Positions 50,908 to 64,000 of a stretch of DNA of 64,000 nucleotides are shown here, piece by piece. The stretch is from Brevundimonas guildfordensis (GTDB taxonomy: Bacteria > Pseudomonadota > Alphaproteobacteria > Caulobacterales > Caulobacteraceae). The notes below the pieces were generated by a model that was not told the DNA's origin, made no database searches, and was given only the letters and a program-made list of their open reading frames with translations. A program made the translations under genes and the position numbers. Within the stretch, counting starts at the first letter, position 1; each line of letters begins with the position of its first letter. Location of the stretch: positions 373,046-437,045 of the forward strand of contig NZ_JACSQU010000002.1 in the NCBI RefSeq assembly GCF_014836405.1, in the 5' to 3' direction.

Positions 50908-51372
50908 ATGGCGGGAAAAGCGGATCAGGGCGGGGCGGCGGGGACGACCGCGGCGTGGCTGGGCGAGGTCTTCGCCAGTCTGAGGACTGCGACAGACCAG
51001 GCGATCGCCGTGGTGACGGCGGCCGAGCCGCCCGCCGATGTGGCCGAGGCCGAGAAGCGGGCGCGCGCCATCGGCGTTCTGGCCCGCACGGCCAAGGCGG
51101 TGGCGGCGCTGGAAGCCGACCTGATCCGCAAGAGCCGCAGCCCTGAAGAGGATGGAATGAGCGACGACGACCGTGACCTCAGCGACGCCGAACTGGCCGG
51201 GCTTCAGGCCGAATTCTTCGCCCGTGTCGATCATCTCGTCGCAGCCATCGAGCGCAAGTCGCTGGCTGCGGGACTGGATCGAGAGCCTGCCGCACGAACA
51301 GCGGGGGGCGGCGCTGAGGGCGGCGGTCAAGGCGACGCCGAGGCTGAACGACGACCAGATCGCGCCGCGTGA
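50908..51372 (+). CDS. GTA g1: small terminase-like protein
   Basis: 154 residues. The N-terminal half is helical: WLGEVFASLRTATDQAIAVVTA and EAEKRARAIGVLARTAKAVAALEADLI (about 17-75). Then an acidic part MSDDDRDLSDAELAGLQAEFFARVDHLVAAIERK (about 83-117), and a disordered Gly/Ala end. In RcGTA the g1 product is the small terminase that starts DNA packaging together with TerL. Its last 200 bases also lie inside the open TerL frame. ATG 50908 begins at a clear gap after the kinase, so the GTA promoter should be in 50799-50907. Confidence 0.7.
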   Translation: MAGKADQGGAAGTTAAWLGEVFASLRTATDQAIAVVTAAEPPADVAEAEKRARAIGVLARTAKAVAALEADLIRKSRSPEEDGMSDDDRDLSDAELAGLQAEFFARVDHLVAAIERKSLAAGLDREPAARTAGGGAEGGGQGDAEAERRPDRAA

Positions 51373-52513
51373 GGACTGGCGCACCTGGGTGCTGCTGGGC
51401 GGGCGCGGGTCGGGCAAGACCTTCGCCGGCGGCTTCTGGATGAACGAACTGGCGCGGGGCGCCGACCGGACCTTCGCCCTGGTCGGAACGGCGCTGCACG
51501 ACGTGCGCGAGGTGATGGTCGAGGGACCGTCGGGGCTGAAGGCTCAGGCGACGGCGGACAACCGGCCGCGCTGGGAGGCGGGGCGGCGCAGGCTGATCTG
51601 GCCCTCGGGCGCGGCGGCCTATGCGTTTTCGGCCGAAGACCCGGACAGCTTGCGGGGACCGCAGTTTCACGCGGCCTGGGCGGATGAGTTCTGCGCCTGG
51701 AGGAACATCGAGGCCACGCTGTCGAACCTGAGGTTCGGGCTGCGTCTGGGGGCGGACCCGAAGCTGGCGATCACGACGACGCCCCGGCCGATCCCGGCGC
51801 TGAGGCGCCTGTTGGCCGAGCCGGGGGTGGTGAAGGCGCGGCTGGCGACCAAGGACAACGCCGGCAATCTGGCGCCGGGGTTCCTGGGCCATCTGCAGAG
51901 CCTCTACGCCGGGACGCGGCTGGAGGCGCAGGAGATGGAAGGGCTGGTGGTCGAGGCCGACGGCGCCCTGTTCCGGGCCGAGGATCTGGCGCGGGCGCGG
52001 GGCAGCCGACCGGCGAAGTTTGAGCGGGTGGTGGTGGCGGTCGATCCGCCCGCCAGCGCCCACGGCGACGCCTGCGGGATCGTGGTCGCGGGGCGCAAGG
52101 ACAAGACGGGCTATGTGCTGGCCGACCGGTCGGCGCGCGGCCTGTCGCCCGCCGGATGGGCGCGGCGCGTGGCTGAGACGGCGCGCGAATTCGACGCCGA
52201 CCTGGTGCTGGCCGAGGCCAATCAGGGCGGGGAGATGGTGCGGACCCTGCTGGGGCAGGCGGATTGCCCGGCGCAGGTGAAGCTGGTGCACGCCAGCCGG
52301 TCGAAGAAGGCGCGGGCCGAGCCGGTGGCGGCGCTCTACGAGCAGGGGCGGGTGGTTCACTGCGGGGCGTTTCCGGCGCTGGAAGAGGAGATGATGGCGC
52401 TGGGGAGCGAGACGCCGGGGGGCAAGAGCCCAGACCGGGCGGACGCCCTGGTGTGGGGGCTGACGCACCTGCTGCTGGCCGGGAAGACGCAGCCGAGGTT
52501 GCGGGCGCTGTGA
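51173..52513 (+). CDS. GTA g2: large terminase
   Basis: ATPase-nuclease motor that cuts and packs host DNA into the head. 446 residues as given from ATG 51173; GTG 51224 is a possible start. Walker A GGRGSGKT is at 76-83 and Walker B-like AWADE at 168-172, with GPQFH just before. The RNase-H-like nuclease domain begins near VVVAVDPPAS, with later Asp/Glu residues in DLVLAEANQGGEMV and SPDRADALVWG. No start exists beyond 51224 before the ATPase fold, so overlap with g1 is at least 149 bases. The stop is 50 bases before portal, with a small repeat in the gap. Confidence 0.93.
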   Translation: MTSATPNWPGFRPNSSPVSIISSQPSSASRWLRDWIESLPHEQRGAALRAAVKATPRLNDDQIAPREDWRTWVLLGGRGSGKTFAGGFWMNELARGADRTFALVGTALHDVREVMVEGPSGLKAQATADNRPRWEAGRRRLIWPSGAAAYAFSAEDPDSLRGPQFHAAWADEFCAWRNIEATLSNLRFGLRLGADPKLAITTTPRPIPALRRLLAEPGVVKARLATKDNAGNLAPGFLGHLQSLYAGTRLEAQEMEGLVVEADGALFRAEDLARARGSRPAKFERVVVAVDPPASAHGDACGIVVAGRKDKTGYVLADRSARGLSPAGWARRVAETAREFDADLVLAEANQGGEMVRTLLGQADCPAQVKLVHASRSKKARAEPVAALYEQGRVVHCGAFPALEEEMMALGSETPGGKSPDRADALVWGLTHLLLAGKTQPRLRAL

Positions 52514-52519
52514 TCTGAT

Positions 52520-52542
52520 CCTTCTCCCGCAAGAGGCGAAGG
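52520..52542. repeat. Degenerate half-copy of a palindromic repeat
   Basis: 23 bases between TerL and portal differ at three positions from the right arm of the larger repeat at 56825-56955. It forms a CCTTC/GAAGG hairpin. The GAAGGG at its end may act as, or hide, a ribosome site for portal. Confidence 0.6.
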
Positions 52543-52563
52543 GAAAATGACATGGAGATTTCA

Positions 52564-53730
52564 ATGGATTGGCGACGACCGTTCGGTCGGCGGCGCGTTG
52601 CTGCGCCCGAAATCAAGGACAGCCGCACCGGGCCGCTGATCGCCCTGACGGGGGCGGGCCGCGCGCGATGGACGCCGCGCGATTACGCGCATCTGGCGGA
52701 CGAGGGGTTCGGCAAGAACGCCGTGGCCTATCGCTGTGTGCGGATGATCGCGGAGGCGGCCGCCTCGACGCCGCTGATAGTGATGGTCGGGGGCGTGCGC
52801 AGCGCGGATCACCCGCTGGCGCGGCTGATCGACAAGCCCAACCCGGAGCAGTCGGGCGGTGAGCTGATGGAGGCGCTCTATGGGGCGCTGCAGACGGCGG
52901 GCAACGCCTATGTCGAGGCGACCGGCGACGCCGACGGGGACGGCTCGCCCGATGAACTGTGGGCGTTGAGGCCGGATCGGGTGAAGGTGGTCCCCGGAAG
53001 GGCGGGCTGGCCGGAAGCCTATGAGTATGCGGTCGGCGGGCGCGCGGTGCGGATCGGGCGGCATGGCGACGGATGGTCGCCGGTCATGCATCTGAAGCTG
53101 TTTCATCCGACGGACGATCACTACGGGTTCTCGCCCCTGGAGGCGGCGGCCTTCGCCATCGACGTGCACAATGCGTCGGGGGCCTGGAACAAGGCGCTGC
53201 TGGACAATGCGGCGCGGCCCTCAGGGGCGCTGGTCTATGGGGCCAAGGACGGAGAGCGGCTGACGGCGGACCAGTTCGAGGCGCTGAAGGCGGAGCTGGG
53301 CGAGGCCCATGCCGGGGCGCGGAACGCCGGGCGGCCGCTGCTGCTGGAAGGCGGGCTGGACTGGAAGCCGATGAGCCTGACGCCGCACGACATGGACTTC
53401 ATCGCCGGGAAACACGCGGCGGCGCGAGAGATCGCCCTGGCCTTTGGGGTGCCGCCGCAACTGCTGGGGATACCCGGCGATGCGACCTACGCCAACTATC
53501 GCGAGGCGAACGCGGCCTTCTGGCGCGGGACGGTGATCCCGCTGGTGAGGAAGGCGGCGGGGGCGATGACGGGCTGGCTGGGGAGCCGCTTCGTCGACTG
53601 CCGGATCGAGCCGGATCTGGATGCAGTTCCGGCCCTTCAGGTCGAGCGGGATGCGCTGTGGGCGCGGCTGAACGCAGCGAGCTTCCTGACGCAGGACGAG
53701 CGGCGCCGGATGGTGGGGGTGGGCGAGTGA
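52564..53730 (+). CDS. GTA g3: HK97-type portal protein
   Basis: Dodecameric ring at the head vertex through which DNA enters. 388 residues from ATG 52564, which has GGAG six bases before it; ATG 52552 is also in frame. Visible family parts: NAVAYRCVRMIAEAAASTPLIVM, NPEQSGGELMEALYGALQTAGNAYVE, the wing WALRPDRVKVVPG, GFSPLEAAAFAIDVHNASGAWNKALLDN, and the stem/tunnel region DFIAGKHAAAREIALAFGVPPQLLGIPGDATYANYREANAAFWR. All are standard for HK97 portals. The stop overlaps the next ATG. Confidence 0.95.
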   Translation: MDWRRPFGRRRVAAPEIKDSRTGPLIALTGAGRARWTPRDYAHLADEGFGKNAVAYRCVRMIAEAAASTPLIVMVGGVRSADHPLARLIDKPNPEQSGGELMEALYGALQTAGNAYVEATGDADGDGSPDELWALRPDRVKVVPGRAGWPEAYEYAVGGRAVRIGRHGDGWSPVMHLKLFHPTDDHYGFSPLEAAAFAIDVHNASGAWNKALLDNAARPSGALVYGAKDGERLTADQFEALKAELGEAHAGARNAGRPLLLEGGLDWKPMSLTPHDMDFIAGKHAAAREIALAFGVPPQLLGIPGDATYANYREANAAFWRGTVIPLVRKAAGAMTGWLGSRFVDCRIEPDLDAVPALQVERDALWARLNAASFLTQDERRRMVGVGE

Positions 53731-53954
53731 TGGAAGCGATGAAGAAGATGCCCGTGGCCCTGATCGCGGCGCTGCTGGTGCAGACCATCGGCGGTCTGGT
53801 GTGGGCCGGAGGGGCGGCGGCGCGGATCGCCACCCTGGAGCAGCGCGTGGATGAACAAAGGCTGGTCGCCGAGCGCCTGGCGCGGCTGGAGGCGCAGGGC
53901 GAGGCGACGCGCGCGGCGGTAGAGCGGATCGAGCGGCGGCTGGAGGAGACATGA
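53730..53954 (+). CDS. GTA g3.5-like small membrane/coiled-coil protein
   Basis: 74 residues. A short basic N-terminus (MEAMKKM) and one transmembrane helix (about 8-30, PVALIAALLVQTIGGLVWAGGAA) are followed by a coiled coil with heptad Leu/Val (ATLEQRVDEQRLVAERLARLEAQGE...AAVERIERRL). RcGTA has a similar small gene (g3.5) between portal and protease. The role is unknown. The start overlaps the portal stop (TGATG) and the end overlaps the protease start, so it is translated in the operon. Confidence 0.8.
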   Translation: MEAMKKMPVALIAALLVQTIGGLVWAGGAAARIATLEQRVDEQRLVAERLARLEAQGEATRAAVERIERRLEET

Positions 53955-54409
53955 TGGCGGCGATAAGCCGAACAAGGGCGGGGCTGGCCATCGCCGGCTA
54001 CGCCTCCCTGTGGGGCGTGGCGGACCTGAACGGGGACGTGACGGCGCGCGGCGTTTTCGCCGAGAGCCTGGCGAAGACCGGCGCGGGCGGAGTGCGGATG
54101 CTGCATCAGCATGAAAGCCGCGCCGTGGTCGGCGTCTGGGAGCGGATGGTCGAGGACGAACGCGGCCTGTGGGTCGAGGGGCGGATCGAGGACTGGTCCG
54201 CTGAGGCCCGCTATGCCGCCGCCCTGACGCGCGCCGGGGCGCTGGACGGGCTGTCGATCGGCTTTCGGGCGACGAAGGCGCGACGCGACGGGCGGCTCAG
54301 GGTGTTGAGCGCGGTCGAGCTGTGGGAGGTGTCGCTGGTGACGTTTCCGATGCTGCCGGGCGCGCGGTTCAGGCGCGCAAGGCCGGAAAAGGACGACGGC
54401 CGGCATTGA
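53951..54409 (+). CDS. GTA g4: HK97-family prohead protease
   Basis: Serine protease that matures the capsid. 152 residues. It opens IAGYASLWGVADLNGDVTARGVF, has the catalytic His in MLHQHES (residues 50-56), Ser102 in DGLSIGF, and ELWEVSLVTFP (123-133) for the third part of the site. Size and motifs are normal for the family. Its 3' end overlaps a convergent minus-strand gene by 41 bases. In other GTA clusters the capsid gene follows at once; here about 1.2 kb of antisense genes lie between. Confidence 0.93.
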   Translation: MMAAISRTRAGLAIAGYASLWGVADLNGDVTARGVFAESLAKTGAGGVRMLHQHESRAVVGVWERMVEDERGLWVEGRIEDWSAEARYAAALTRAGALDGLSIGFRATKARRDGRLRVLSAVELWEVSLVTFPMLPGARFRRARPEKDDGRH

Positions 54410-55019
54410 GGCCCTCGGCAACATAATGGTCGTGCATGGCGCGCAGCCAATGCCAGGTCACGAGGAGGAAGCCGATCGCAGTGAAGATGGCGTAGGTGCT
54501 CCAGTAGCTGAGAGGCCAGGGTCGACCCAGTCCACGCGTCAGTAGAGCGACAGGATCGTCCAGCAGGGCCAGGGCGGCTAGGGCGACGCTGAACACCAGG
54601 CAAAACGGAATAACGAATGGCGCCAGCCAGATCGGAGGTTTGGCGCCGAGGCGGGCGACGGCTGCCTGAAGCAGCGGGGGCAGGGTCGCCAGAGGAGGAT
54701 GGGAGCCGATGGCCAGAACCTCGTGAAGCGGCTCGTATTCCGGCTCGTCGGAAACCTGGGTCCGCTGGAGGGGTGTCAGGCGGCGATGGCGTTTTCTCTG
54801 CGCTTGGCTCTGCAGCCGGCCGATCAGGAATGAGGCGGCGGGCGGGACGAGCATGAGCAGAGGCGCAAACCAGATGAACCCGAGTTGACCATCGCCATGC
54901 TTGGCTACGGCGCAGAGGGACAGCGGCAACAGAGGCAGCCAGGCCCAGACAAGTTTCAGAATCCAGGACTGCCGGACGGCGTCAAGAACCTGCGAGGTTG
55001 GGCTTGAGACGATGGGCAT
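54369..55019 (-). CDS. Unknown four-helix membrane protein inserted in the GTA cluster
   Basis: 216 residues, no family recognised. Hydrophobic segments lie at about residues 20-38, 46-66, 130-152 and 172-192. A soluble loop (about 70-125) between the second and third is basic then acidic (QAQRKRHRRLTPLQRTQVSDEPEYEP). It ends in the 3' end of the protease gene, with 41 bases antisense. Its ATG overlaps the stop of the lipoprotein gene, so the two form a small operon running against the GTA. The base composition is slightly less GC-extreme than the flanking GTA genes, suggesting separate origin; this is an impression, not a measurement. Confidence 0.7.
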   Translation of the reverse strand: MPIVSSPTSQVLDAVRQSWILKLVWAWLPLLPLSLCAVAKHGDGQLGFIWFAPLLMLVPPAASFLIGRLQSQAQRKRHRRLTPLQRTQVSDEPEYEPLHEVLAIGSHPPLATLPPLLQAAVARLGAKPPIWLAPFVIPFCLVFSVALAALALLDDPVALLTRGLGRPWPLSYWSTYAIFTAIGFLLVTWHWLRAMHDHYVAEGLNAGRRPFPALRA

Positions 55020-55447
55020 CAGTCGGTCGTCTTCAATCGCGAACGGTTGGCGGCCGGGCCGTGCAGGCCGGGTTCCTGCTGGCGGTAGCCGCGTAGCAGG
55101 CGAGCGCAGGATTCGGGCGTCTGTCGGGCGGCGATATCGCGGCCGCGGGCATGGGCTTGGCGCAGGGCCTCCTGTCGGTCCGGGGCGGCGTAGGGGGCGT
55201 GGCGCCGCAGATGGGCCTCGAAGGTCTGGTCGCCATCCGGATCAAGGGCTTCGCAGGCGCCGAGGATCTCGAACAGGCGGGCGTCGAGGGAGACGTCGGT
55301 GGATAGGCGGGGCGGAGCGGCAGGCGCTGTCTGGGGCGAACCTTGGGACGAATTCTGGGACATGGTCGGACGCTCAGGGGTTGAGCAGGCCATGAGGGCG
55401 ATGGCCGACAGCGGAGCCGAGAGGGCGACGCCTACGAGTTTCAACAT
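55019..55447 (-). CDS. Small lipoprotein inserted in the GTA cluster
   Basis: 142 residues from ATG 55447, with GGAGG five bases before it on the minus strand. The lipoprotein signal is MLKLVGVALSAPLSAIALMAC, with lipid Cys at about residue 21. The mature part has a Ser/Gln/Pro linker, then a helical domain with two Cys (EILGACEALDPDGDQTFEAHL and QTPESCARLLRGYRQQEPG). No family was recognised. It is divergent from the capsid gene, so a promoter pair is expected in 55448-55582, where a CCGGGC/GCCCGG hairpin is seen. Confidence 0.75.
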   Translation of the reverse strand: MLKLVGVALSAPLSAIALMACSTPERPTMSQNSSQGSPQTAPAAPPRLSTDVSLDARLFEILGACEALDPDGDQTFEAHLRRHAPYAAPDRQEALRQAHARGRDIAARQTPESCARLLRGYRQQEPGLHGPAANRSRLKTTD

Positions 55448-55582
55448 CCATCCTCCATGTCCTCCGGTTCGATAACGGGAGGGTCGCACGCTTTTGAAGC
55501 GCGGCAAAGGATGGGACGGTTCCGGGCCTGGCCCGGTTTGACGGCGCGCCGCAGGACGGTCGCGCATTTTTCTGGAGACATC

Positions 55583-56809
55583 ATGAAAGAGACCAAGACC
55601 GTCTCGGGCACGCCCGAGGCGCGCGCCGCCATGCATGAGATGATGGCCGCGTTCGAGGCGTTCAAAGGGGCGAACGACGCCCGTCTGGACGAGATCGAGA
55701 AGAAGGCTTCGGCCGATGCGCTGCTGGAGGAGAAGGTGGCGCGCATCGATCAGGCCGTGGCGCAGGCCCAGGCGCGCATGGACCGCGCGCTGAGCGAGAG
55801 CCGCAGGCCGATGTTGGGCGCCGAGCTGCCCGCGGTAGTCGCGGCGCCGGAGGCCAAGGCGGCGTGGGATGGCTATATGAAGTCGGGCCAAGCGCATGGT
55901 CTGGAACTGAAGGCGGGGCTGTCGTCGGCGTCGAACTCGGCCGGCTATGTCGTGCCGCCGGAGACGGAGCGGGCCATCGAGCGGCGCCTGATGGCGGGGT
56001 CGCCGATGCGCGAAATCGCCACGGTGCGCACGGTGGGCTCGGGCGTGTTCAGGAAGCCCGTGTCCACGGCAGGGGTGACGGCGGGCTGGGTGGCCGAGAC
56101 GGCGGCGCGCCCTGAGACGGATCCGGCGACGCTGGCGCTGCTGGAGTTCTCCTCGGCCGATCTCTACGCCTGTCCGGCGGCGACGCAGAGCCTGCTGGAC
56201 GACGCCCTGATCGACCTGGACGAGTGGCTGGCGGCCGAGGTCGAGGACGCCTTCGCCGCCCAGGAGACAGCGGCCTTCGTCAGCGGCGACGGGGTCAACA
56301 AGCCCAAGGGCTTTCTGGCCTACGCCAACGCGGCCGAGGGGACGCAGACCTGGGGCCAGATCGGCACCGTGGCGTCGGGGGCGGCGGGCGGTTTCGCCAC
56401 CACGAACCCGGCGGACAAGCTGATCGACCTGATCTATGCGCCCAAGGCCCAGTATCGGCCGAACGGGCGTTTCGTGATGAACCGACGCACGGTCTCGACG
56501 GTGCGCAAGTTCAAGGATGCGGACGGCAACTACATCTGGTCGCCGGCGACGCGCCCGGGCGAGACGGCCAGCCTGCTGGGCTATCCGGTCACCGAGATCG
56601 AGACCATGCCGGATATCGGCGCCAACAGTCTGTCGATCGCGTTCGGGGACTTTGCGCGCGGCTATCTGATCGTGGATCGGGCGGGGGTGCGGGTGCTGCG
56701 CGATCCCTATTCGGCCAAGCCCTATGTGCTGTTCTACACGACCAAGCGCGTGGGCGGCGGAGTGCAGAACTTCGACGCGATCAAGCTGATGAAGTTCGCG
56801 GCCTCGTAG
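55583..56809 (+). CDS. GTA g5: HK97-type major capsid protein
   Basis: 408 residues from ATG 55583, six bases after CTGGAG; the open frame upstream is not coding-like. The N-terminal part (about 1-80) is a coiled-coil scaffold of the delta-domain type (ALLEEKVARIDQAVAQAQARM), expected to be cut by the protease. The fold follows: SNSAGYVVPPETERAIERRLMAGSPMREIATV, SADLYACPAATQSLLDDALIDLDEWLAAEVEDAFA, VSGDGVNKPKGFL, FVMNRRTVSTVRKFKDADGNYIW, and IAFGDFARGYLIVDRAG. All are clear landmarks. It now has its own upstream region because of the inserted genes. Confidence 0.95.
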   Translation: MKETKTVSGTPEARAAMHEMMAAFEAFKGANDARLDEIEKKASADALLEEKVARIDQAVAQAQARMDRALSESRRPMLGAELPAVVAAPEAKAAWDGYMKSGQAHGLELKAGLSSASNSAGYVVPPETERAIERRLMAGSPMREIATVRTVGSGVFRKPVSTAGVTAGWVAETAARPETDPATLALLEFSSADLYACPAATQSLLDDALIDLDEWLAAEVEDAFAAQETAAFVSGDGVNKPKGFLAYANAAEGTQTWGQIGTVASGAAGGFATTNPADKLIDLIYAPKAQYRPNGRFVMNRRTVSTVRKFKDADGNYIWSPATRPGETASLLGYPVTEIETMPDIGANSLSIAFGDFARGYLIVDRAGVRVLRDPYSAKPYVLFYTTKRVGGGVQNFDAIKLMKFAAS

Positions 56810-56972: not shown

Positions 56973-57239
56973 ATGACGGCACCCGTGAGCCTCGCGGAGG
57001 CGAAGCTGTTCCTGCGCGTGGAGCATGAGGCGGAGGACGGGCTGATCCAGACGCTGATCGACGCGGCCAGGGCGCGGGTGGAGGGGGAGGTGGGCCTGAG
57101 CCTGACCTCGACCTCGCCGGCGCCGCTGCGGCTGGCGGTGATGATGCTGGTGATGCGCGCCTATGAGCGCGGCGATAGCGAGATGTCGGCGGCGCCGGTC
57201 GAGGGGTGGATCGCGCCCTATCGCGTGGTGCGGCTGTGA
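56973..57239 (+). CDS. GTA g6: head-tail connector (gp6-like)
   Basis: 88 residues. The gp6-like pattern VSLAEAKLFLRVEHEAEDGLIQTLIDAARARVEGEVG is at residues 5-41, followed by a helix LRLAVMMLVMRAYERG. It forms the adaptor ring under the portal. An AGGAG stands eight bases before the ATG, just after the palindromic repeat. The stop overlaps the GTG start of g7. Confidence 0.9.
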   Translation: MTAPVSLAEAKLFLRVEHEAEDGLIQTLIDAARARVEGEVGLSLTSTSPAPLRLAVMMLVMRAYERGDSEMSAAPVEGWIAPYRVVRL

Positions 57240-57550
57240 GCGGCGCGATGAAGGTGGTGGCGTCGCTGGTGCGGCCGGTGGCGGCGCAGACGCCCTATGG
57301 CGGTCGGGTCGTCAGCTATGAGCCGGTCGGGTCGCTGTGGCTGGCCTTGGGCGCGCGCAGGCGGCGCGAGCGGACAGAGGCGGGCGTGACGCGCGGCGTG
57401 GAGACGCTGAGCGCCACGGTGCGGGCCGATCCGCGGCTGGAGGAGGGGCTGGTGGTGCGCTTCGGCGGCGCGGACTGGGCCGTGGTCGCGATCGAGACTG
57501 ATCCGAAGGCGGCGGGACGGGTGCGGCTGAATCTGGAGCGGGCGCGATGA
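57236..57550 (+). CDS. GTA g7: head closure/stopper protein
   Basis: About 104 residues from GTG 57236 (overlapping the g6 stop as GTGA) or 100 from ATG 57248. The pattern VASLVRPVAAQTPYGGRVVSYEPVGSLWLALGARRRRERTEAGVTR is that of phage head-tail joining (SPP1 gp16-like) proteins. It ends with DWAVVAIETDPKAAGRVRLNLERA. It seals the head after DNA filling. It is translationally coupled on both sides. Confidence 0.88.
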   Translation: MSGAMKVVASLVRPVAAQTPYGGRVVSYEPVGSLWLALGARRRRERTEAGVTRGVETLSATVRADPRLEEGLVVRFGGADWAVVAIETDPKAAGRVRLNLERAR

Positions 57551-57954
57551 AGGATCATGAAGGGGCGCTGGTGAAGGCGCTGATCGCGCATCTGGGCGGC
57601 GACGGGGCGCTGAAGGCGCTGCTGGGCGATCCCGTGCGGGTGTGGGATGAGGCGCCGCAGGGAGCGGGGTTTCCGCACCTGTTGATCGGGCGGTGTGAGA
57701 GTAGGCCGCTGAACGCCGACGGCGGCGGGGTGGAGCAGCGGCTGACGTTGACCTGCGCCAGTCGGTTCAGGGGGCTGGAAGAGGCGCGGGCGGTGGCGGC
57801 GGCGGTGCGGGCGCGGGTCGCCGATGCGCCGCTGGAGGCGGACGGGGTGAAGGCGGTCAACGTGGCGGTGACGTTCACGGACCTGTTCCGCAGTCCGGAT
57901 CTGAAGCGGGCCTGGGCGGTGATGCGGCTGAGAGCCGTGACGGAGGAAATCTGA
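57547..57954 (+). CDS. GTA g8: DUF3168 tail terminator protein
   Basis: 135 residues. The DUF3168 pattern is GALVKALIAHLGGDGALKALLGDPVRVWDEAPQGAGFPHLLIGRCESRPLN, with a late strand VNVAVTFTDLFRSPD and RAWAVMRLRAVTEE. In GTAs and lambda-like phages this protein caps the tail tube and joins it to the head. The start overlaps the g7 stop (ATGA). Confidence 0.9.
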   Translation: MKDHEGALVKALIAHLGGDGALKALLGDPVRVWDEAPQGAGFPHLLIGRCESRPLNADGGGVEQRLTLTCASRFRGLEEARAVAAAVRARVADAPLEADGVKAVNVAVTFTDLFRSPDLKRAWAVMRLRAVTEEI

Positions 57955-57955
57955 G

Positions 57956-58378
57956 ATGAGCGCACAACGCGGCAAGGACATCCTGCTGAAGATCGAGGGC
58001 GCGCCCGGTTCAGGGGCGGGCGCCTTCACGACGGTGGCGGGGCTGAGGGCGAGGACGATCTCGCTGAACGCCAGGACGGTGGACGCGACCGACAGCGACA
58101 GCGCCGGACGGTGGCGCGAACTGCTGGCGGGGGCGGGCGTGAAGTCGGCGGCGGTGTCGGGGCAGGGGATATTCCGCGATGCGGCGTCGGACGCCCTGAT
58201 CCGCGAGGCCTTCTTTGAGCAGGCGGCGAAGACGTGGCGGCTGATCGTGCCGGATTTCGGCGTGCTGGAAGGGCCGTTCCTGGTCGCGGCGCTGGAATAT
58301 GCGGGCGAGCATGAGGGCGAGGCCAGTTTTGCTCTGAGCCTGGCCAGTGCGGGCGAGATCAGCTTCGAGGTGCTGTGA
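57956..58378 (+). CDS. GTA g9: major tail tube protein (TP901-1 family)
   Basis: 140 residues. It begins SAQRGKDILLKIE and has LRARTISLNARTVDATDSDSAGRWRELLAGAGVKSAAVSGQGIF, the TP901-1/GTA major tail pattern with the WxE/LLxGxG core. It ends with an IVPDFGVLEGPFLVAALEYAGEHEGEASFALSLASAGEISF beta region. It builds the tail tube hexamers. A GGAGG stands upstream of the ATG. Its stop overlaps the g10 start. Confidence 0.92.
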   Translation: MSAQRGKDILLKIEGAPGSGAGAFTTVAGLRARTISLNARTVDATDSDSAGRWRELLAGAGVKSAAVSGQGIFRDAASDALIREAFFEQAAKTWRLIVPDFGVLEGPFLVAALEYAGEHEGEASFALSLASAGEISFEVL

Positions 58379-58668
58379 TGGCGAACGGCGTGCGGGGCGA
58401 GGTGGTCGCGAGGCTGGCGGGGGCGGAGCGGACGCTGTGCCTGACGCTGGGCGCCTTGGCCGAGATCGAGACGGGGCTGGGCGTGGCCGGGATGGCGGCG
58501 CTGGCCGAGCGGATGCGCTCGCTGTCGGCGCGGGACCTGCTGGTGGTGCTGGCGGCCCTTTTGCGCGGCGGGGGCGAGGGTTCGCTGGCGGACGGGCTGG
58601 CGAACGCGCCGGTCGATCCGCGCGAGGCGGCGGAGGCGGTGGCGAAGGCCTTTGCGGCGGCGGCGTGA
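58378..58668 (+). CDS. GTA g10: tail assembly chaperone (GTA TAC family)
   Basis: 96 residues from ATG 58378; GTG 58375 just before is in frame. The pattern NGVRGEVVARLAGAERTLCLTLGALAEIETGLGVAGMAALAERM is that of GTA-family TAC proteins (residues 2-45), followed by a helical, Ala-rich end. It works with g10.1 to hold the tape measure in tail assembly. The start overlaps g9 and the end overlaps the GTG of g10.1. Confidence 0.88.
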   Translation: MANGVRGEVVARLAGAERTLCLTLGALAEIETGLGVAGMAALAERMRSLSARDLLVVLAALLRGGGEGSLADGLANAPVDPREAAEAVAKAFAAAA

Positions 58669-58844
58669 GCACGCCGTGGGGAGAGATGATGCAGGCGGCG
58701 GCGCGGATGGGCGTGGCGCCGGAAGGCTTCTGGCGGCTGTCGCTCAAGGAGTGGCGGATGCTGACGGCGGGGCCGGCGCAGGCGGCGCCCTTGGGGCGCG
58801 GCGAACTGGAGCGGATGCAGGAGAGGTGGCCGGATGAGCGATAG
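58665..58844 (+). CDS. GTA g10.1: short phage tail assembly chaperone
   Basis: 59 residues from GTG 58665, which overlaps the g10 stop (GTGA); the frame is not given its own start by an ATG near there. The family pattern is complete: PWGEMMQAAARMGVAPEGFWRLSLKEWRML (residues 4-33) and ELERMQERWPDE at the end. It is the second part of the TAC pair and overlaps the tape-measure start by 11 bases. Confidence 0.88.
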   Translation: MSTPWGEMMQAAARMGVAPEGFWRLSLKEWRMLTAGPAQAAPLGRGELERMQERWPDER

Positions 58845-59367
58845 TTTCAGGCCGGATGGCATCGACGCCGTGCCGGTCAAGGCGGCCGAGGCGGCGGCGG
58901 CGCTGGAGGCGCTGCGCGAGCCGGCGGAGCGGGCGGCGGCCTCGATCGAGGATGCGTTCGGGCGGGCGGGGGCCAGTCTGACCCGATCGCTGGCGCGGGC
59001 GGCGGCGGACGGGCAGGTGACGCTGGCCGAGCTGGCGCGGGCGGTGCTGAACGCGGTCAATGCGGCGGCGGGCGTGCGCGGCGGGGGCCTGTCGGGCGCC
59101 ATAGCGGCGGCGATGGGCGGCTTCGGCGGCGCGCGGGCGGATGGCGGGCCCGTGCTGGGCGGGGGCGCCTATCTGGTCGGCGAACGCGGGCCGGAGGTGT
59201 TTCGTCCGGCGGGCGCAGGGACGGTCGAGCCGATGGGCGGTCATTTTGGTTCGGGGCCGGGGGTGACGGTGAACGTCATGGTGGACGGCGGCGCCGAGGG
59301 CCTGTTGCGCTCAGAGACGCAGATTGCGCGAATGCTGGCGCGGGCCACGGCCCTGGGCGTGCGCTGA
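58834..59367 (+). CDS. GTA g11: short tail tape measure protein
   Basis: 177 residues. The N-terminal half is helical and Ala-rich (AAEAAAALEALREPAERAAASIEDAFGRAGASLTRSLARAA). The C-terminal part has the tape-measure signature GGARADGGPVLGGGAYLVGERGPEVFRPAGAGTVEP (about 98-132) and VTVNVMVDGGAEGLLRSETQIARMLARA. It sets tail length. It is short even for a GTA, predicting a short tail. It is the last gene before the second antisense insertion, where the plus-strand run breaks. Confidence 0.88.
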   Translation: MSDSFRPDGIDAVPVKAAEAAAALEALREPAERAAASIEDAFGRAGASLTRSLARAAADGQVTLAELARAVLNAVNAAAGVRGGGLSGAIAAAMGGFGGARADGGPVLGGGAYLVGERGPEVFRPAGAGTVEPMGGHFGSGPGVTVNVMVDGGAEGLLRSETQIARMLARATALGVR

Positions 59368-59401
59368 ATGTACCGCGCGCCGAGCGGTAGAGACTAACAA
59401 G

Positions 59402-59427
59402 AAAGGGCGCTCCGAAGAGCGCCCCTT
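59402..59427. terminator. Terminator between tape measure and DUF805 gene
   Basis: Perfect 8-bp stem GGGCGCTC / GAGCGCCC with loop CGAA (59405-59424). On the minus strand it is followed by CTTTCTTGTT, so it mainly ends the DUF805 gene. It can also stop plus-strand GTA transcription before g12. Confidence 0.75.
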
Positions 59428-59431
59428 GGAC

Positions 59432-60130
59432 TTACTCGCCCTTGGGATTCGGGCCGTATTTGTTGTCGCCGCGCTGGCTGTCGGCGATGCCGATCCAGAG
59501 CCAGAAGCCGATAGCGACCAGCCATGTCAGGCTAAGGATGCCCAGCGCCGGGCCGAAGGTGCTGAGGATGACGGCGGGATCTTCGTTCTCGATGGCTTGA
59601 GCGTTCATGAAGACCGACACTCCGATCGACATGAAGGCGAAGACCCAGCCGGCGATCATGACGACATAGGGAATGGCGATGAGCCAGCCAGTCTTGCCCA
59701 TGTCGTGCAGGCGCTTCACGCCGATGGCGAGGTGCGGCCACAGCAGGACGATGCCTAACATGTTCAGGAACGGGATGAAGTTCAAGACAAGGCCGACGCC
59801 GAACAAGATCAGCCAGCTGATCCAGAAGTGCTGGCGACGCAGGCGGCCGTCGAAGGAGAACAAGGCGGTGGCGAAGTCATAGGCTCCGGCCGGCGCAGCG
59901 CTGGTGGGTGAGCCGGCGGCCTGGCCGAAGGCGGCGGCGGGCGCGGTGGAGGCGAGGATCATGATCTGGGTCGCCTCCATGCCTTCCGGCACGAAGTCGA
60001 CGCGGCCGCCGACGGCGATGACGCCGCCCGCCTGGATCGCCGACTGGGCGAAGCCATAGCGGATGCTGTCGTCGCCGCTGATCAGGCCCGTGCCCGAACC
60101 TTCGTCGTAGCTGAGAATTTCGCCGCGCAC
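59432..60130 (-). CDS. Cold-shock-like domain plus DUF805 membrane protein inserted in the GTA cluster
   Basis: 232 residues from GTG 60130, five bases after AGGAGA. The first 55 residues (VRGEILSYDEGSGTGLISGDD...GRVDFVPEG) resemble a cold-shock/OB fold, with GxGLI in the RNP-like place. An Ala/Pro linker follows. The DUF805 domain (about 90-225) has FSFDGRLRRQHFWISWLILFG, then LWPHLAIGVKRLHDMGKTGW, the family signature, with four transmembrane helices and a C-terminal ADSQRGDNKYGPNPKG. The linked CSD-DUF805 plan is known in single proteins of proteobacteria. It has no tail-assembly role that I can see and breaks g11 from g12. Confidence 0.85.
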   Translation of the reverse strand: MRGEILSYDEGSGTGLISGDDSIRYGFAQSAIQAGGVIAVGGRVDFVPEGMEATQIMILASTAPAAAFGQAAGSPTSAAPAGAYDFATALFSFDGRLRRQHFWISWLILFGVGLVLNFIPFLNMLGIVLLWPHLAIGVKRLHDMGKTGWLIAIPYVVMIAGWVFAFMSIGVSVFMNAQAIENEDPAVILSTFGPALGILSLTWLVAIGFWLWIGIADSQRGDNKYGPNPKGE

Positions 60131-60228
60131 GCGGGTCTCCTGTCGTTGAACGGCTTTGCCGTGGTGTGGCGAAAGCATGGCCGACGCTGGCGGCGCGGAC
60201 AACCCGCAGCGTGACGCTACGCGCGGAT

Positions 60229-60238
60229 TTTCGCGAAA
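60229..60238. promoter_or_regulatory. Palindrome in the DUF805 - g12 divergent region
   Basis: TTTCGCGAAA is a perfect 10-base palindrome in the 160-base gap between two divergent genes. The place fits an operator acting on g12-g15, on the DUF805 gene or on both. No regulator is identified. Confidence 0.3.
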
Positions 60239-60290
60239 CATTCGCAACCGGTCCCGCGAGGGGACCCCATCATGCAATCGGCGAGGACAC

Positions 60291-60902
60291 ATGGCCTTTC
60301 ATGAGGTGCGCCTGCCGGCGCGGCTGGCGTTCGGCTCGACCGGAGGCGTCGAGCGCAGGACGGAGATCACGACGCTGGCGTCGGGGTTCGAACGGCGCTC
60401 GACGCCGTGGGCCGAGGGGCGCAGGCGCTACCTGATCGGGGCGGGCTTGCGGTCGCTGGACGACATGGCGGCGCTGACGAGCTTCTTCGAGGCGCGTCGG
60501 GGACGGCTGTATGGGTTCCGGTTTCGCGACTTCGCGGACTTCAGGAGCGGGGCGCCGGGGGCGGCCGTGACGCCGCTGGACCAGGCGATCGGGACGGGCG
60601 ACGGCGAAACGCGCACGTTCCAGCTGTGCAAGGCCTATGGCGATCATCGGCGGCTCATCGCCAAGCCGGTCGAGGGATCGGTGCGGGTGGCTGTGGCGGG
60701 CGTGGAGACGGCGGCCTTCAATCTGGAGGCGACGACGGGGCGGGTGACGCTGGCGACGGCGCCGGCGCAGGGCGCGGTCGTGAGCGCGGGCTTCGCCTTC
60801 GACGTGCCGGTGCGCTTCGACGCGGACCGCATGGAGGTGACGCTGGAGAGCTTCGGCGCCGGGCGGATGGTCGCCATGCCGCTGATCGAGGTGCGGGTCT
60901 GA
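60291..60902 (+). CDS. GTA g12: DUF2460 distal tail protein
   Basis: 203 residues from ATG 60291, with GAGG just upstream. The pattern FHEVRLPARLAFGSTGGVERRTEITTLASGFERRSTPWAEGRRRYLIGAGLRSLDDMAALTSFFEARRG is the TIGR02217/DUF2460 hallmark. It continues GFRFRDFADFRS and ends with VPVRFDADRMEVTLESFGAGRM. In RcGTA this forms the distal tail ring. After the insertion it needs its own promoter in 60131-60290. Confidence 0.93.
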   Translation: MAFHEVRLPARLAFGSTGGVERRTEITTLASGFERRSTPWAEGRRRYLIGAGLRSLDDMAALTSFFEARRGRLYGFRFRDFADFRSGAPGAAVTPLDQAIGTGDGETRTFQLCKAYGDHRRLIAKPVEGSVRVAVAGVETAAFNLEATTGRVTLATAPAQGAVVSAGFAFDVPVRFDADRMEVTLESFGAGRMVAMPLIEVRV

Positions 60903-60905
60903 GCC

Positions 60906-61559
60906 ATGCGCAATGTTCCCGATGAACTGGCCGCCCGCATCGAGAGGGGGGCGGCGACGCTGTGTCATGTCTGGCTGCTGAGGCGGGCGGACGGGCGGGC
61001 GATGGGCTTCACCGACCATGACCGCGATCTGGAGGTCGAAGGCGTGACGTGCCGAGCAGCCAGCGGCTGGACCGGCGGGGCGGGCGAGGGCGAGGTCGGG
61101 CTGGCGACGGGGTCGCTGTTGGCCTCGGGCGGGCTGGATGACGCGGCGATCACTGAAGAGGACATAGCGGCGGGGCGGTATGACGCGGCAGCGGTGGAGC
61201 TGTGGCGCGTGGACTGGATGCGGCCGGACCTGAAGGTGCGGCTGTGGAGGGGGAGGCTGGCGCGGATACGGCGCGAGGACGGACGGTTCATCGCCGACCT
61301 GGACGGGCCGATGGCGGCGCTGGAACGGGTGGTGGGGCGGACCTACGGCCGGGGCTGCGACGCGGTGCTGGGCGATGGGCGCTGCGGGCTGGAGGCGGCG
61401 GTGATCGCGGGGCGCAGTTGCGACAAGCGGTGGGCGACCTGTGTGGGCGTCTTCGGCAATGGGGTGAACTTTCAGGGGTTTCCCGATGTGCCGGGCGAGG
61501 ACTTCCTGACCGCGCGGCCGGTAAGCGGGCGCAATGACGGCGGGAGCCGCAGGCGATGA
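60906..61559 (+). CDS. GTA g13: DUF2163 tail hub protein
   Basis: 217 residues. It opens VPDELAARIERGAATLCHVWLLRRADG and contains MGFTDHDRDLEVEGVTC, GLDDAAITEEDIAAGRYDAAAVELWRVDW, then four Cys in GRGCDAVLGDGRCGL and SCDKRWATCVGVFGN (about 160-188). These fit the metal or Fe-S site known for GTA hub and lambda gpL-like proteins. It starts three bases after g12 and overlaps g14 by four bases. Confidence 0.93.
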   Translation: MRNVPDELAARIERGAATLCHVWLLRRADGRAMGFTDHDRDLEVEGVTCRAASGWTGGAGEGEVGLATGSLLASGGLDDAAITEEDIAAGRYDAAAVELWRVDWMRPDLKVRLWRGRLARIRREDGRFIADLDGPMAALERVVGRTYGRGCDAVLGDGRCGLEAAVIAGRSCDKRWATCVGVFGNGVNFQGFPDVPGEDFLTARPVSGRNDGGSRRR

Positions 61560-62005
61560 GGGGCGCGCAGATCGTGGCCGCTGCGCGCGGTTGGCTGGGC
61601 ACGCCGTATCGGCATCAGTGCAGCTTGAAGGGCGAGGGGGCGGACTGCCTGGGCCTGGTGCGCGGGGTCTGGCGGGAGGTGATGGGCGTGGAGCCGGAGG
61701 CGCCGCCGCCCTATCGCCCTGACTGGGCCGAGGTCGGGGGAGAGGAGGCGCTGTGGGCGGCGGCGCGGCGCTGGCTGGTGGAGATACCGCCCGGGCGGGC
61801 GGGGCTGGGCGACGTGCTGCTGTTCCGCATGGCGGCGGGGGCGCAGGCCAAACACTGCGCCGTGTTAAGCGCGGTGGAGGGGCCCGAGCGGGGGATGATC
61901 CACGCCTATTGGGGCCGCTCGGTTGTCGAAAGCTGGATGGGGCCGTGGTGGCGACGGCGGCTGGTCGCGGTGTTTCGCTGGCCTGAACCCTTGGCGGGAA
62001 TTTGA
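61556..62005 (+). CDS. GTA g14: NlpC/P60 tail peptidase
   Basis: 149 residues. Catalytic Cys31 is in GADCLGLVRG and His100 in AKHCAVL; His116 (MIHAYW) may be the third residue. It opens IVAAARGWLGTPYRHQCSLKGEG as in TIGR02219 phage peptidases. It is thought to cut peptidoglycan so that DNA can enter the recipient. It overlaps g13 (ATGA); g15 begins 11 bases after its stop. Confidence 0.94.
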   Translation: MRGAQIVAAARGWLGTPYRHQCSLKGEGADCLGLVRGVWREVMGVEPEAPPPYRPDWAEVGGEEALWAAARRWLVEIPPGRAGLGDVLLFRMAAGAQAKHCAVLSAVEGPERGMIHAYWGRSVVESWMGPWWRRRLVAVFRWPEPLAGI

Positions 62006-62016
62006 AGGAGTAGACG

Positions 62017-64000
62017 ATGGCGCAGGTGCTGCTGGGCGGGCTTGGCGGGATGGCGGGCGTCAGCAGCCTGGGCCTGTTGGCCGGGGGCCTGCTGGGGCGG
62101 GCGCTGGACGACCGGCTGGTGGCGGGCCTGTCGCCGGCGCGGCAGGTCGGGCCGAGGCTGGAGGGGCTGAAGCTGCAATCCTCCGCCGAGGGGGCGCCGA
62201 TGGCCTGCGTTCTCGGGCGGGCGCGGGTGACGGGGCAGGTGATCTGGGCCGCGCGGTTTCTGGAGCGCAAGGAGAAGCGCTCGGCCGGCAAGGCGGGAAA
62301 GACGGTCGACTACGCCTATTCGCTGAGTTTCGCCGTAGCCCTGTGCGAGGGGCCGATCGACGGGGTGGGGCGCATCTGGGCCGACGGCCAGCCGATGGAC
62401 ATGGCGGGCGTGGCCATGCGCCTGCATCGCGGGACCGAGGGCCAACTGCCCGACCCGCTGATCGAGGCGGTGGAGGGGCGGGCGCCCGCCTATCGCGGGA
62501 CGGCCTATGTGGTGTTCGAGGACCTGCCGCTGGACGCCTATGGCGACCGGGCGCCGCAGCTGTCGTTTGAGGTGTTCCGCCGACCGCAGGGCGCCGAAGC
62601 GCAGATGGAGGACCGGTTGGAGGGCGTCTGCCTGATCCCCGGCGCGGGCGAGTTCTGCCTGGCGACCGAACCGGTGATGCGGCGCGAGGGGCTGACGAAA
62701 TCGACGCCCGAGAATGTGCATCTGACGGCGGGGCAGACGGATCTGGAGGCGTCGCTGGATCAGTTGACGGCCCAGGCGCCGAGGCTGAAACGGGTCAGCC
62801 TGGTGGTCGGCTGGTTCGGCGATGACATCCGCATGAGCCATTGCCGCATCCGGCCGGGGGTGGAGCGGCGTCAGAAGCCGACCGAGCCTATGGTCTGGCG
62901 CGTGGCCGGGGTCGAGCGGGCGGACGCGCATCTGATCTCTCAGGTCGAGGAGGGGCCGGCCTATGGCGGCACGCCCTCGGACGACAGCGTGAGGCAGGCG
63001 ATCCGGACGCTGAAGGCGCGCGGGCTTGAGGTGACGCTGTATCCCTTCGTCTTCATGGACTGCCCCGGCTATCCGTGGCGGGGGCGGATTACGGCGACGG
63101 ATGGAGCGGGGGCGACGGCCGAGGTCGCGGCCCTGTTCGGGGCGGCGGACGGCTGGGGCCTTCGTCGGCTGGCGCTGCACTATGCGAAGATCGCGGCCGA
63201 GGAGGGGGCGGACGACCTGCTGATCGGGTCGGAGATGCGCGGGCTGACCTGGACGCGCGATGCGGGCGGCGGCTTTCCGGCGGTGGCGCAGTTCCGGACG
63301 CTGGCGGCTGAGTGCCGGGCTGTGGTCGGGACGCGGGTGAAGCTGAGCTACGCCGCCGACTGGTCCGAATATTTCGGCTGGCAGAGGGAGGGAGAGGTAA
63401 GGTTTCACCTCGATCCGCTGTGGGCTGATCCGAACATCGATTACGTCGCCATCGACTGGTACCCGCCGATGGGCGACTGGCGCGGCGGCGCGGGCGGGGT
63501 GGATGCGGCGGACTTCACGGGGCCGTCGGACCCGGCTTACCTGGCGGCGCAGGTCGCGGGGCGCGAGGGGTATGACTGGTTCTACGTCTCCGACGCGGAC
63601 CGGGCGGCGCAGCGGCGCACGGCGATCGAGGACGGCGCCCACGGCGAGCACTGGATCTGGCGCAACAAGGACCTGAAGGGCTGGTGGTCGAACGCGCACC
63701 ATGAGCGCGTCGGGGGCGCAAGGCAGGCGGCGCCGACGGCCTGGGTTCCGCAGATGAAGCCGATCCGGCTGACCGAGTTCGGCTGTGCGGCGGTGGATCG
63801 CGGGGGCAATGCGCCGAACCTGTTCCAGGATCCGAAGAGCAGCGAGAACGCCCTGCCGCCGCACTCGAGCGGAGCGCGCGACGACCGGATGCAGCGGCGG
63901 CTGATCGAGGCGGTGCTGACGCACTATGCGCAGCCGGTGAACAACCCGATTTCGGGCGTCTATGGCGGGCCGATGCTGTTGGGGGCGGACGTCTGGTGCT
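62017..64000 (+). CDS. GTA g15: tail tip/host-specificity protein, 3' end beyond window
   Basis: The open frame runs 661 codons to the window end without a stop; full-length homologues are about 1,300 residues. AAGGAG stands six bases before ATG 62017. The N-terminal part has a hydrophobic Gly-rich stretch (VLLGGLGGMAGVSSLGLLAGGLLG), then VDYAYSLSFAVALCEGPIDGVGRIWADG, the phage tail-tip pattern. The GTA TIM-barrel domain follows from about residue 260, with MSHCRIRPG, LYPFVFMDCPGYPWRGRIT, LLIGSEMRGLTWTRD and YVAIDWYPPMGDW. In RcGTA this is the large megatron protein that contacts the host. The receptor-binding end is not in the window. Confidence 0.95.
   Translation, partial: MAQVLLGGLGGMAGVSSLGLLAGGLLGRALDDRLVAGLSPARQVGPRLEGLKLQSSAEGAPMACVLGRARVTGQVIWAARFLERKEKRSAGKAGKTVDYAYSLSFAVALCEGPIDGVGRIWADGQPMDMAGVAMRLHRGTEGQLPDPLIEAVEGRAPAYRGTAYVVFEDLPLDAYGDRAPQLSFEVFRRPQGAEAQMEDRLEGVCLIPGAGEFCLATEPVMRREGLTKSTPENVHLTAGQTDLEASLDQLTAQAPRLKRVSLVVGWFGDDIRMSHCRIRPGVERRQKPTEPMVWRVAGVERADAHLISQVEEGPAYGGTPSDDSVRQAIRTLKARGLEVTLYPFVFMDCPGYPWRGRITATDGAGATAEVAALFGAADGWGLRRLALHYAKIAAEEGADDLLIGSEMRGLTWTRDAGGGFPAVAQFRTLAAECRAVVGTRVKLSYAADWSEYFGWQREGEVRFHLDPLWADPNIDYVAIDWYPPMGDWRGGAGGVDAADFTGPSDPAYLAAQVAGREGYDWFYVSDADRAAQRRTAIEDGAHGEHWIWRNKDLKGWWSNAHHERVGGARQAAPTAWVPQMKPIRLTEFGCAAVDRGGNAPNLFQDPKSSENALPPHSSGARDDRMQRRLIEAVLTHYAQPVNNPISGVYGGPMLLGADVWC

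Follow-up and report, generated by a model that had tools for sequence, protein, structure and literature searches.

A variable gene slot between the protease and capsid genes of the Brevundimonas GTA cluster, with mostly antisense occupants

In the gene transfer agent (GTA) cluster of Brevundimonas, the interval between the genes of the prohead protease (g4) and the major capsid protein (g5) is a hypervariable site. Its recurring content is overwhelmingly antisense, and the inserts lie between the 3' end of the protease gene and a short leader next to the capsid gene. The usual picture of a GTA operon is that of a streamlined set of conserved particle genes, and no description of such a slot was found in the literature searched, which covers few subscription journals. 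The window, that is, the whole stretch of 64,000 nucleotides from Brevundimonas guildfordensis analyzed here, holds one filling of this slot, a pair of minus-strand genes reported by a sequence-only reading. That observation was partly confirmed, with two corrections, and its interpretation was partly supported; the interest resides in the slot more than in the pair.

The g4–g5 slot in the window and across the genus

Upstream of the slot, the GTA backbone (51173–53954, plus strand) comprises g2, which from its position we take to be the terminase gene, the portal gene g3 (52552–53730; PF04860, E = 1.5e-88), and the small g3.5 (53730–53954). On the same strand follow g4 (53951–54409), encoding an HK97-family prohead protease (PF04586, E = 5.7e-25; TIGR01543, E = 8.2e-29), and, after the slot, g5 (55583–56809, ATG at 55583), encoding the major capsid protein (PF05065, E = 1.6e-91; TIGR01554, E = 2.5e-117). 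The downstream backbone (56973–64000, plus strand), delimited by gene calls and a junction map, presumably corresponds to g6–g15, numbers that we assigned by gene order; g15 extends beyond the end of the window, to 65694, as read from locus L211.

Between g4 and g5 lie, both on the minus strand, a 216-aa membrane protein ORF, hereafter MEM (54369–55019), and a 142-aa signal-peptide/lipoprotein ORF with an ATG start, hereafter LIP (55019–55447). Their coordinates and the PF04586/PF05065 flanks agree with the earlier description of the pair, and the 3' end of MEM indeed overlaps g4 by 41 bp. The two genes had been read as coupled by ATGA; the junction is actually TGATG, in which the stop of LIP shares one base with the start of MEM. 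Hydropathy bore out the four-helix membrane protein, with four hydrophobic regions in MEM (residues 20–38, 48–66, 135–153, and about 170–195). The evidence for a lipoprotein is mixed: a lipobox, L-M-A-C, can be read by eye in the ORF of the window, but its cysteine is missing in five of the 13 aligned family members. A spacer of 135 bp (55448–55582) separates the divergent starts of LIP and of the capsid gene. The divergent capsid promoter that had been proposed was not recovered in a scan of positions 54300–55700, which found no promoter of the sigma-70 consensus, a consensus that alphaproteobacterial promoters may not fit. One terminator-like site (minus strand, 55607–55593) was near the mean of shuffled sequences and lies upstream of the pair, and an Rfam search of positions 53500–56000 returned nothing but a sub-threshold miRNA match.

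The composition of the pair is unlike that of the surrounding genes, with GC3 values of 0.74 and 0.79 versus 0.88 and 0.90 for the protease and capsid genes in this one genome. When the protease tails were compared at 13 loci, a conserved end, LPGARF, was followed in the window by a tail of 12 residues, and at three near-empty sites the protease ended in RVP, RLA, and SLA. Because the stretch encoding these 12 residues in the window also codes for the C terminus of MEM, the insert starts directly at the 3' end of the protease gene.

The slot was mapped at 114 loci, consisting of the window and 115 stretches around the capsid gene from 114 other genomes, minus L167 and L168, whose capsids are 43–47% identical and belong to other elements. 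Genome G001, capsid-positive with a 30-codon remnant, was left out of the gap map; seven of the 114 loci had no measurable gap, and 17 had no called gap gene with a score of at least 10. It had been assumed that g4 and g5 are normally adjacent, which is untrue in Brevundimonas: among the 107 measured loci, the gap had a median of 1292 bp (range −1 to 4020 bp) and contained many different sets of genes, and it was at least 500 bp long in 96 loci and at least 1000 bp in 66, whereas one locus fell between 200 and 500 bp and 10 were below 200 bp. Because the protease frame runs on without a stop in several loci, some of these gaps are underestimated, not overestimated.

Gap genes were called with a home-made codon-usage caller trained on the window, which enters every count and which starts the MEM gene of the window too late (161 aa instead of 216). 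The 215 called proteins fell into 62 clusters, of which 20 recur in at least two loci (16 all on the minus strand, three all on the plus strand, and one mixed). Members of these recurring families, present at 92 of the 114 loci, number 160 on the minus strand versus 13 on the plus strand, and the called gene adjoining the capsid gene is on the minus strand in 94 of 97 cases and on the plus strand in three. Singleton gap ORFs had no strand bias (18 minus, 24 plus), and since these 42 ORFs may be partly spurious, the claim on strand rests on the recurring families and on the capsid-adjacent gene. A minus-strand gap gene nearest to the protease gene overlaps the 3' end of the latter in 43 of 75 loci.

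The commonest occupant is a family of about 270 aa with hydrophobic C-terminal segments and no Pfam match (C0, 52 loci), followed by C1 (23 loci), C2 (17 loci), the LIP family (14 loci), and the MEM family (12 loci). Occupants combine freely (LIP with MEM, C0 with MEM, C0 with LIP, C0 with C1, and others), and those matched by Pfam include a thioesterase, an M20 peptidase, a FecR protein (on the plus strand), a DUF4440 protein, and a protoglobin chemotaxis receptor. An enrichment in envelope proteins was not shown by a crude hydropathy count, which misses some evident signal peptides: nine of the 17 antisense recurring families are of membrane or signal type, versus 21 of 50 other genes of the window. 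Turnover was estimated as the least number of changes on a FastTree tree of capsid DNA (98 of the 114 loci) and compared with the mean of 40 label shuffles. The values, which the noise of a single-gene tree inflates, were 19 versus 32.1 for C0, 13 versus 18.4 for C1, 7 versus 12.4 for C2, 7 versus 13.4 for LIP, 8 versus 10.6 for MEM, and 8 versus 9.6 for near-empty sites. The slot content is partly inherited yet often changed, with the MEM family and empty sites near random. One option offered by the sequence-only reading, that of cargo, is supported in kind, as the g4–g5 junction takes up inserts throughout the genus and most of what it contains is antisense.

Coding, conservation and distribution of the MEM and LIP families

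MEM and LIP both have protein relatives in other genomes, at 21–97% identity, and dS exceeded dN in every pair compared (simple NG86 estimates, of which the large dS values are unreliable). Between the genome of the window (G000) and G076, dN/dS was about 0.63 for MEM and 0.19 for LIP; between G000 and G028, it was 0.16 for LIP. Diverged pairs gave dN values of 0.50–0.65 and dS values of 1.03–2.88 for MEM (the short G028 piece excepted), and of 0.34–0.39 and 0.73–1.08, respectively, for LIP. Third-position changes dominate in the diverged pairs and in the close LIP pairs, but not in the close MEM pair (13, 4, and 12 changes by codon position). In G028, MEM is a remnant that has lost about 361 bp, with LIP present, and in G016 it is split into two pieces; because of these breaks and of the dN/dS of about 0.63, MEM may be dispensable. 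In the alignment of ten MEM proteins (A1), 12 columns are invariant and a motif near the C terminus, around HDHYVAEA..GRRPFPAL, is conserved; the 13 aligned LIP proteins (A2) keep two cysteines, C65 and C114.

A GTA capsid match was found in 116 of 131 genus genomes, whereas the MEM and LIP profiles matched in only 15 and 18, respectively, and neither family is thus conserved with the cluster as a GTA structural gene would be. All 16 MEM matches are antisense to the GTA capsid gene and no more than about 2.2 kb upstream from it; of the genomes with LIP, 14 have it at the slot and four have a weak match (E = 2e-9 to 2e-11) elsewhere. Conservation of the pair in related Brevundimonas had been put forward as a check, and both genes proved to be whole only in the genome of the window and in G076 among the 131, relatives having one gene of the pair, other genes, or nothing at the slot. 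A neutral insertion, the proposed refutation, received mixed evidence: the pair is absent from many close relatives, but the two ORFs are conserved as coding sequences and their site is non-random. Nowhere else in the genus do the MEM and C0 families occur at comparable score, since all 15 genomes with MEM and all 59 with C0 (E ≤ 1e-10) have the gene at the GTA slot, which in three of the C0 genomes belongs to a decayed locus, with positions compared by eye. Outside the genus, no MEM was found in an order-level draw of 299 genomes, the three matches all being in Brevundimonas. When IMG/VR and GTDB contigs were searched with three families, matches came from 84 loci on 76 distinct contigs. A GTA capsid (>60% identity) with the matched gene antisense to it was present at 81 of them; the other three, on two contigs, end before the capsid gene and carry g3/g4. 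One metagenome assembly labelled Bordetella sp. (L277, JAFKFS010000121.1) has the pair in a GTA cluster of the Brevundimonas type and falls within Brevundimonas when grouped, and its label is probably wrong.

The profile searches that had been suggested identified no family for either protein in Pfam, PHROGs, or NCBIfam: Pfam and PHROGs gave nothing at E ≤ 1, and a match to TIGR04286 of NCBIfam was discarded as chance (11.5 bits versus a cut-off of 150). Among PDB sequence profiles, there was no match for MEM, and five for LIP (E = 0.048–0.88) and one for C0 (E = 0.27) were all taken as chance. AlphaFold models (pLDDT 74.2 for MEM and 67.1 for LIP) had no Foldseek match in the PDB at E ≤ 0.001. 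None of 10 proteins matched PADLOC-DB at E ≤ 0.1, which leaves room for new defence systems; MEM, LIP, and one C0 protein had no match in 50,697 phage records, and the cassette DNA had none among plasmids. The roles as a regulator or in particle release or uptake, suggested earlier for the pair, are thus ones to which no family, defence, or structure match points. A recent exchange of the cassette between G000 and G076, considered from a dS lower in the cassette than in its flanks, was dropped, as windowed identity had no clear boundary.

Other insertion sites, other genera and decayed loci

In 40 whole clusters, gaps above 300 bp were found at g4–g5 (32 of 38), at g11–g12 (34 of 37), and at g2–g3 (7 of 22), and the remaining GTA junctions exceeded this length in 0 to 4 of about 37 cases. 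The Brevundimonas cluster is like the RcGTA type in the order of its genes from g2 to g15, which include those for portal, protease, and capsid, but differs from it by two antisense insertion sites (g4–g5 and g11–g12) and a sense site (g2–g3). The insert at g11–g12 is a single DUF805 family, with 41 called genes in 34 of the 40 clusters, all on the minus strand. Its member in the window (59432–60130, minus strand) is the second antisense gene there; when read from an alternative ATG at 60292 (59432–60292), it has an extra N-terminal part and matches PF05656 (E = 1.2e-13). The genes of the g2–g3 gap are 12 on the plus strand and one on the minus strand, and several of ten proteins from this gap or from just before g3 match tail fibre, tail protein, GDSL esterase, and O-acetyltransferase families. 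Judged from these matches, the sense inserts resemble components of the particle or of adsorption. The antisense inserts do not, a statement drawn from absent matches. Sense inserts at L239:2228-3703, L239:1819-2100, L250:15870-17039, L236:944-1969, and L221:17943-19013 are perhaps a swappable GTA adsorption module. A transposase-like gene, recognized by eye at L244:16527-17486, is the sole large insert seen between g3.5 and g4.

In other genera of the family, 40 loci were analyzed, out of 66 genomes with a match. The g4–g5 gap was 16–288 bp in 25 of them, 446–2212 bp in 13, and negative, that is, not properly measurable, in two. At five loci of one genus (g22 in our sample), which we infer to be Caulobacter, a single antisense family of 116–118 aa lies exactly between g4 and g5, and the one of the five proteins that was scanned matched PF00903 (glyoxalase/bleomycin resistance, E = 1.5e-5). 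According to Gozzi et al. (2022; PMC9632790), the antisense gene CCNA_02873 of Caulobacter crescentus provides zeocin tolerance, also, by comparison, where the GTA locus is deleted, and CCNA_02872, adjacent to it by number, is the major capsid gene of the C. crescentus GTA. Judged by gene numbers, the site of CCNA_02873 would be the same slot. This is the only antisense GTA gene met in the literature searched. Like the occupants of the slot, it is an antisense gene within a GTA cluster, numbered beside the capsid gene, and in that study it serves the cell; it differs in being one glyoxalase-type gene, whereas the Brevundimonas pair is unrelated to it and most Brevundimonas genomes have a filled slot, with a wide variety of genes. 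As the zeocin phenotype described in that study illustrates, functions of the cell that have nothing to do with the GTA can be lost when the entire locus is deleted.

GTA remnants and antisense genes were also searched for in 16 genomes without a good capsid match. These decayed loci are mixed, some keeping antisense genes and others having lost or broken them. In G127 (L254/L263), the capsid gene is cut to 22 codons and g5–g11 are gone, and C0 (271 aa) and DUF805 are whole. This is the only one of the 16 genomes in which C0 is whole, and because it is 99.6% identical to the C0 of a GTA-positive relative, the GTA loss was probably recent and the survival of the gene is weak evidence. A whole DUF805 gene lies among fragments of g3, g11, g12, and g15 in G066 (L265), and DUF805 is kept beside g11/g12-type genes in G026, G039, and G088, although the last two are on short contigs, where the missing capsid may be an assembly gap. 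G103 (L256) has kept g3–g4 with only a remnant of C0 and no DUF805, C0 is broken in G001 (L255), and the DUF805 gene of G123 (L266) is without about 75 N-terminal residues. DUF805 relatives (about 40%) were present in G100 and G071, where the flanking sequence retrieved showed no GTA gene. One or more long antisense ORFs remain in the gap at each of the broken-capsid loci L161–L165.

Possible roles of the slot, and the capsid leader

We consider it fairly probable that the pair is one occupant of an antisense g4–g5 slot whose occupants are moron-like passengers, serving the cell and not being particle parts. Phage morons are extra genes inserted between conserved structural genes, patchy in distribution, different in base composition, and with no known role in the particle. 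The pair is like them in lying at a junction of conserved genes, in being absent or different in relatives, and in its unlike GC3. It differs in that its site is in a domesticated chromosomal GTA and not in a phage, its direction is almost fixed, no phage record carries MEM, LIP, or the tested C0 protein, and the scans, made with a sigma-70 consensus for promoters, gave no clear promoter or terminator of its own. We counted in favour of passengers the hypervariable gap, the strand bias, the concentration of long gaps at three junctions, the particle-like or adsorption-like look of the sense inserts at or before g3, the locking of MEM and C0 to the GTA site, the 81 of 84 contig loci with the gene antisense to a GTA capsid, the low GC3, the absence of a phage match, the retention of slot genes in G127 and G066, and CCNA_02873. 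Against them were counted the loss or breakage of C0 with the GTA in G103 and G001, the shortened DUF805 of G123, C0 being whole in G127 alone, the broken MEM of G028 and G016, and the singleton gap ORFs without strand bias.

Families locked to one GTA site could alternatively have a GTA-linked role. Slot genes might act in the envelope of recipients or producers, in particle uptake, release, or lysis protection, as the confinement of MEM and C0 to GTA loci and the membrane-bound or exported appearance of MEM, LIP, C0, C1, and others would suggest. We find this quite improbable, as close relatives differ in content while their particle genes stay conserved, the hydropathy count is without enrichment (9/17 versus 21/50), none of the 10 proteins has a PADLOC match, and C0 and DUF805 are whole in G127 without a capsid. 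That the inserts are random debris, decaying without function, is very improbable: MEM is broken in two genomes, its dN/dS is about 0.63 between G000 and G076, and slot content has a high turnover, but LIP has a dN/dS of 0.16–0.19 in close pairs, diverged MEM and LIP pairs have NG86 dS values of 0.73–2.88 versus dN values of 0.34–0.65, and recurring families are present at 92 of 114 loci.

An excludon is an overlapping antisense operon. Likewise, an antisense transcript of the pair would overlap g4 and mutually exclude expression, here over a 3' gene overlap of only 41 bp; unlike in an excludon, the slot content is exchangeable. In a regulation of this kind, slot transcription would oppose GTA transcription, so that in most cells g3/g4 would be held at a low level or the operon silenced; any antisense gene would suffice, and the pair would be carried by a regulatory antisense promoter. 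The direction kept while content changes, the overlap with the protease 3' end in 43 of the 75 loci with a minus-strand protease-nearest gene, and the antisense insert at g11–g12 all fit such regulation. We nevertheless hold it to be rather unlikely: 10 of 107 loci have a gap below 200 bp and no called gene, so that the device is not needed, 25 of the 40 gaps in other genera are 16–288 bp long, and the sigma-70 consensus scan found no promoter between 54300 and 55700. Also unlikely is a built-in switch, in which the occupant would be transcribed only in non-producers, its antisense transcription helping to silence the capsid half, and the anti-terminated GTA transcript would shut the slot in producers. 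If this were true, bacteria would use a captive virus operon to house "non-producer only" genes, and strains would exchange alleles via the conserved flanks.

Moron-like passengers, the reading that we favour, would enter where insertion is tolerated, after the protease stop and ahead of the capsid leader. Their antisense direction may persist because the terminator of a sense insert would cut the GTA transcript short, or its promoter would switch on the capsid genes out of turn, whereas an antisense insert would do neither; we infer that such a direction filter lies behind the orientation. Slot contents would be swapped by homologous recombination in the conserved flanks. The pair would be expressed from the spacer in non-producers and would be read only as antisense RNA in GTA producers, and MEM and LIP probably have a joint role in the envelope. 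RNA polymerase would be helped across the insert by anti-termination of the GafZ type, which is known in Caulobacter: Tran et al. (2024) describe GafZ-dependent read-through of terminators in the Caulobacter GTA cluster, and with read-through of this type such an operon could bear inserts. A slot with changing contents and a fixed direction gives a handle on an anti-terminated operon that tolerates foreign genes, and it bears on producer/non-producer gene silencing and on genes hitch-hiking at the GTA locus.

In the 40 whole clusters, the 60 nt before the capsid gene were the most structured of 14 GTA gene leaders (mean z −1.90); the mean z was −2.04 at 113 genus loci (52 below −2) and −1.90 at 40 loci of other genera (20 below −2). 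The leader of the window, with a z of −0.78, is not more stable than shuffles, and the spacer there contains a 15-nt inverted repeat (55522–55536), with another stem predicted ahead of the ribosome-binding site of the capsid gene. A palindrome of the TAACCGC-N5-GCGGTT type lies 35–38 nt before the capsid gene in 47 of 114 loci, and other inverted repeats occur there in many more. A regulon role of this palindrome was rejected: the exact form was found in 22 of 61 genomes, once in each, and in 21 of the 22 just upstream of the capsid gene; the reversed control pattern occurred seven times in six genomes. The capsid-leader hairpin may end transcription, stabilize the mRNA, or serve as an operator. 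Capsid-proximal hairpins of differing sequences were observed about 35–55 nt upstream of the capsid start, for example at L103, L071, and L126.
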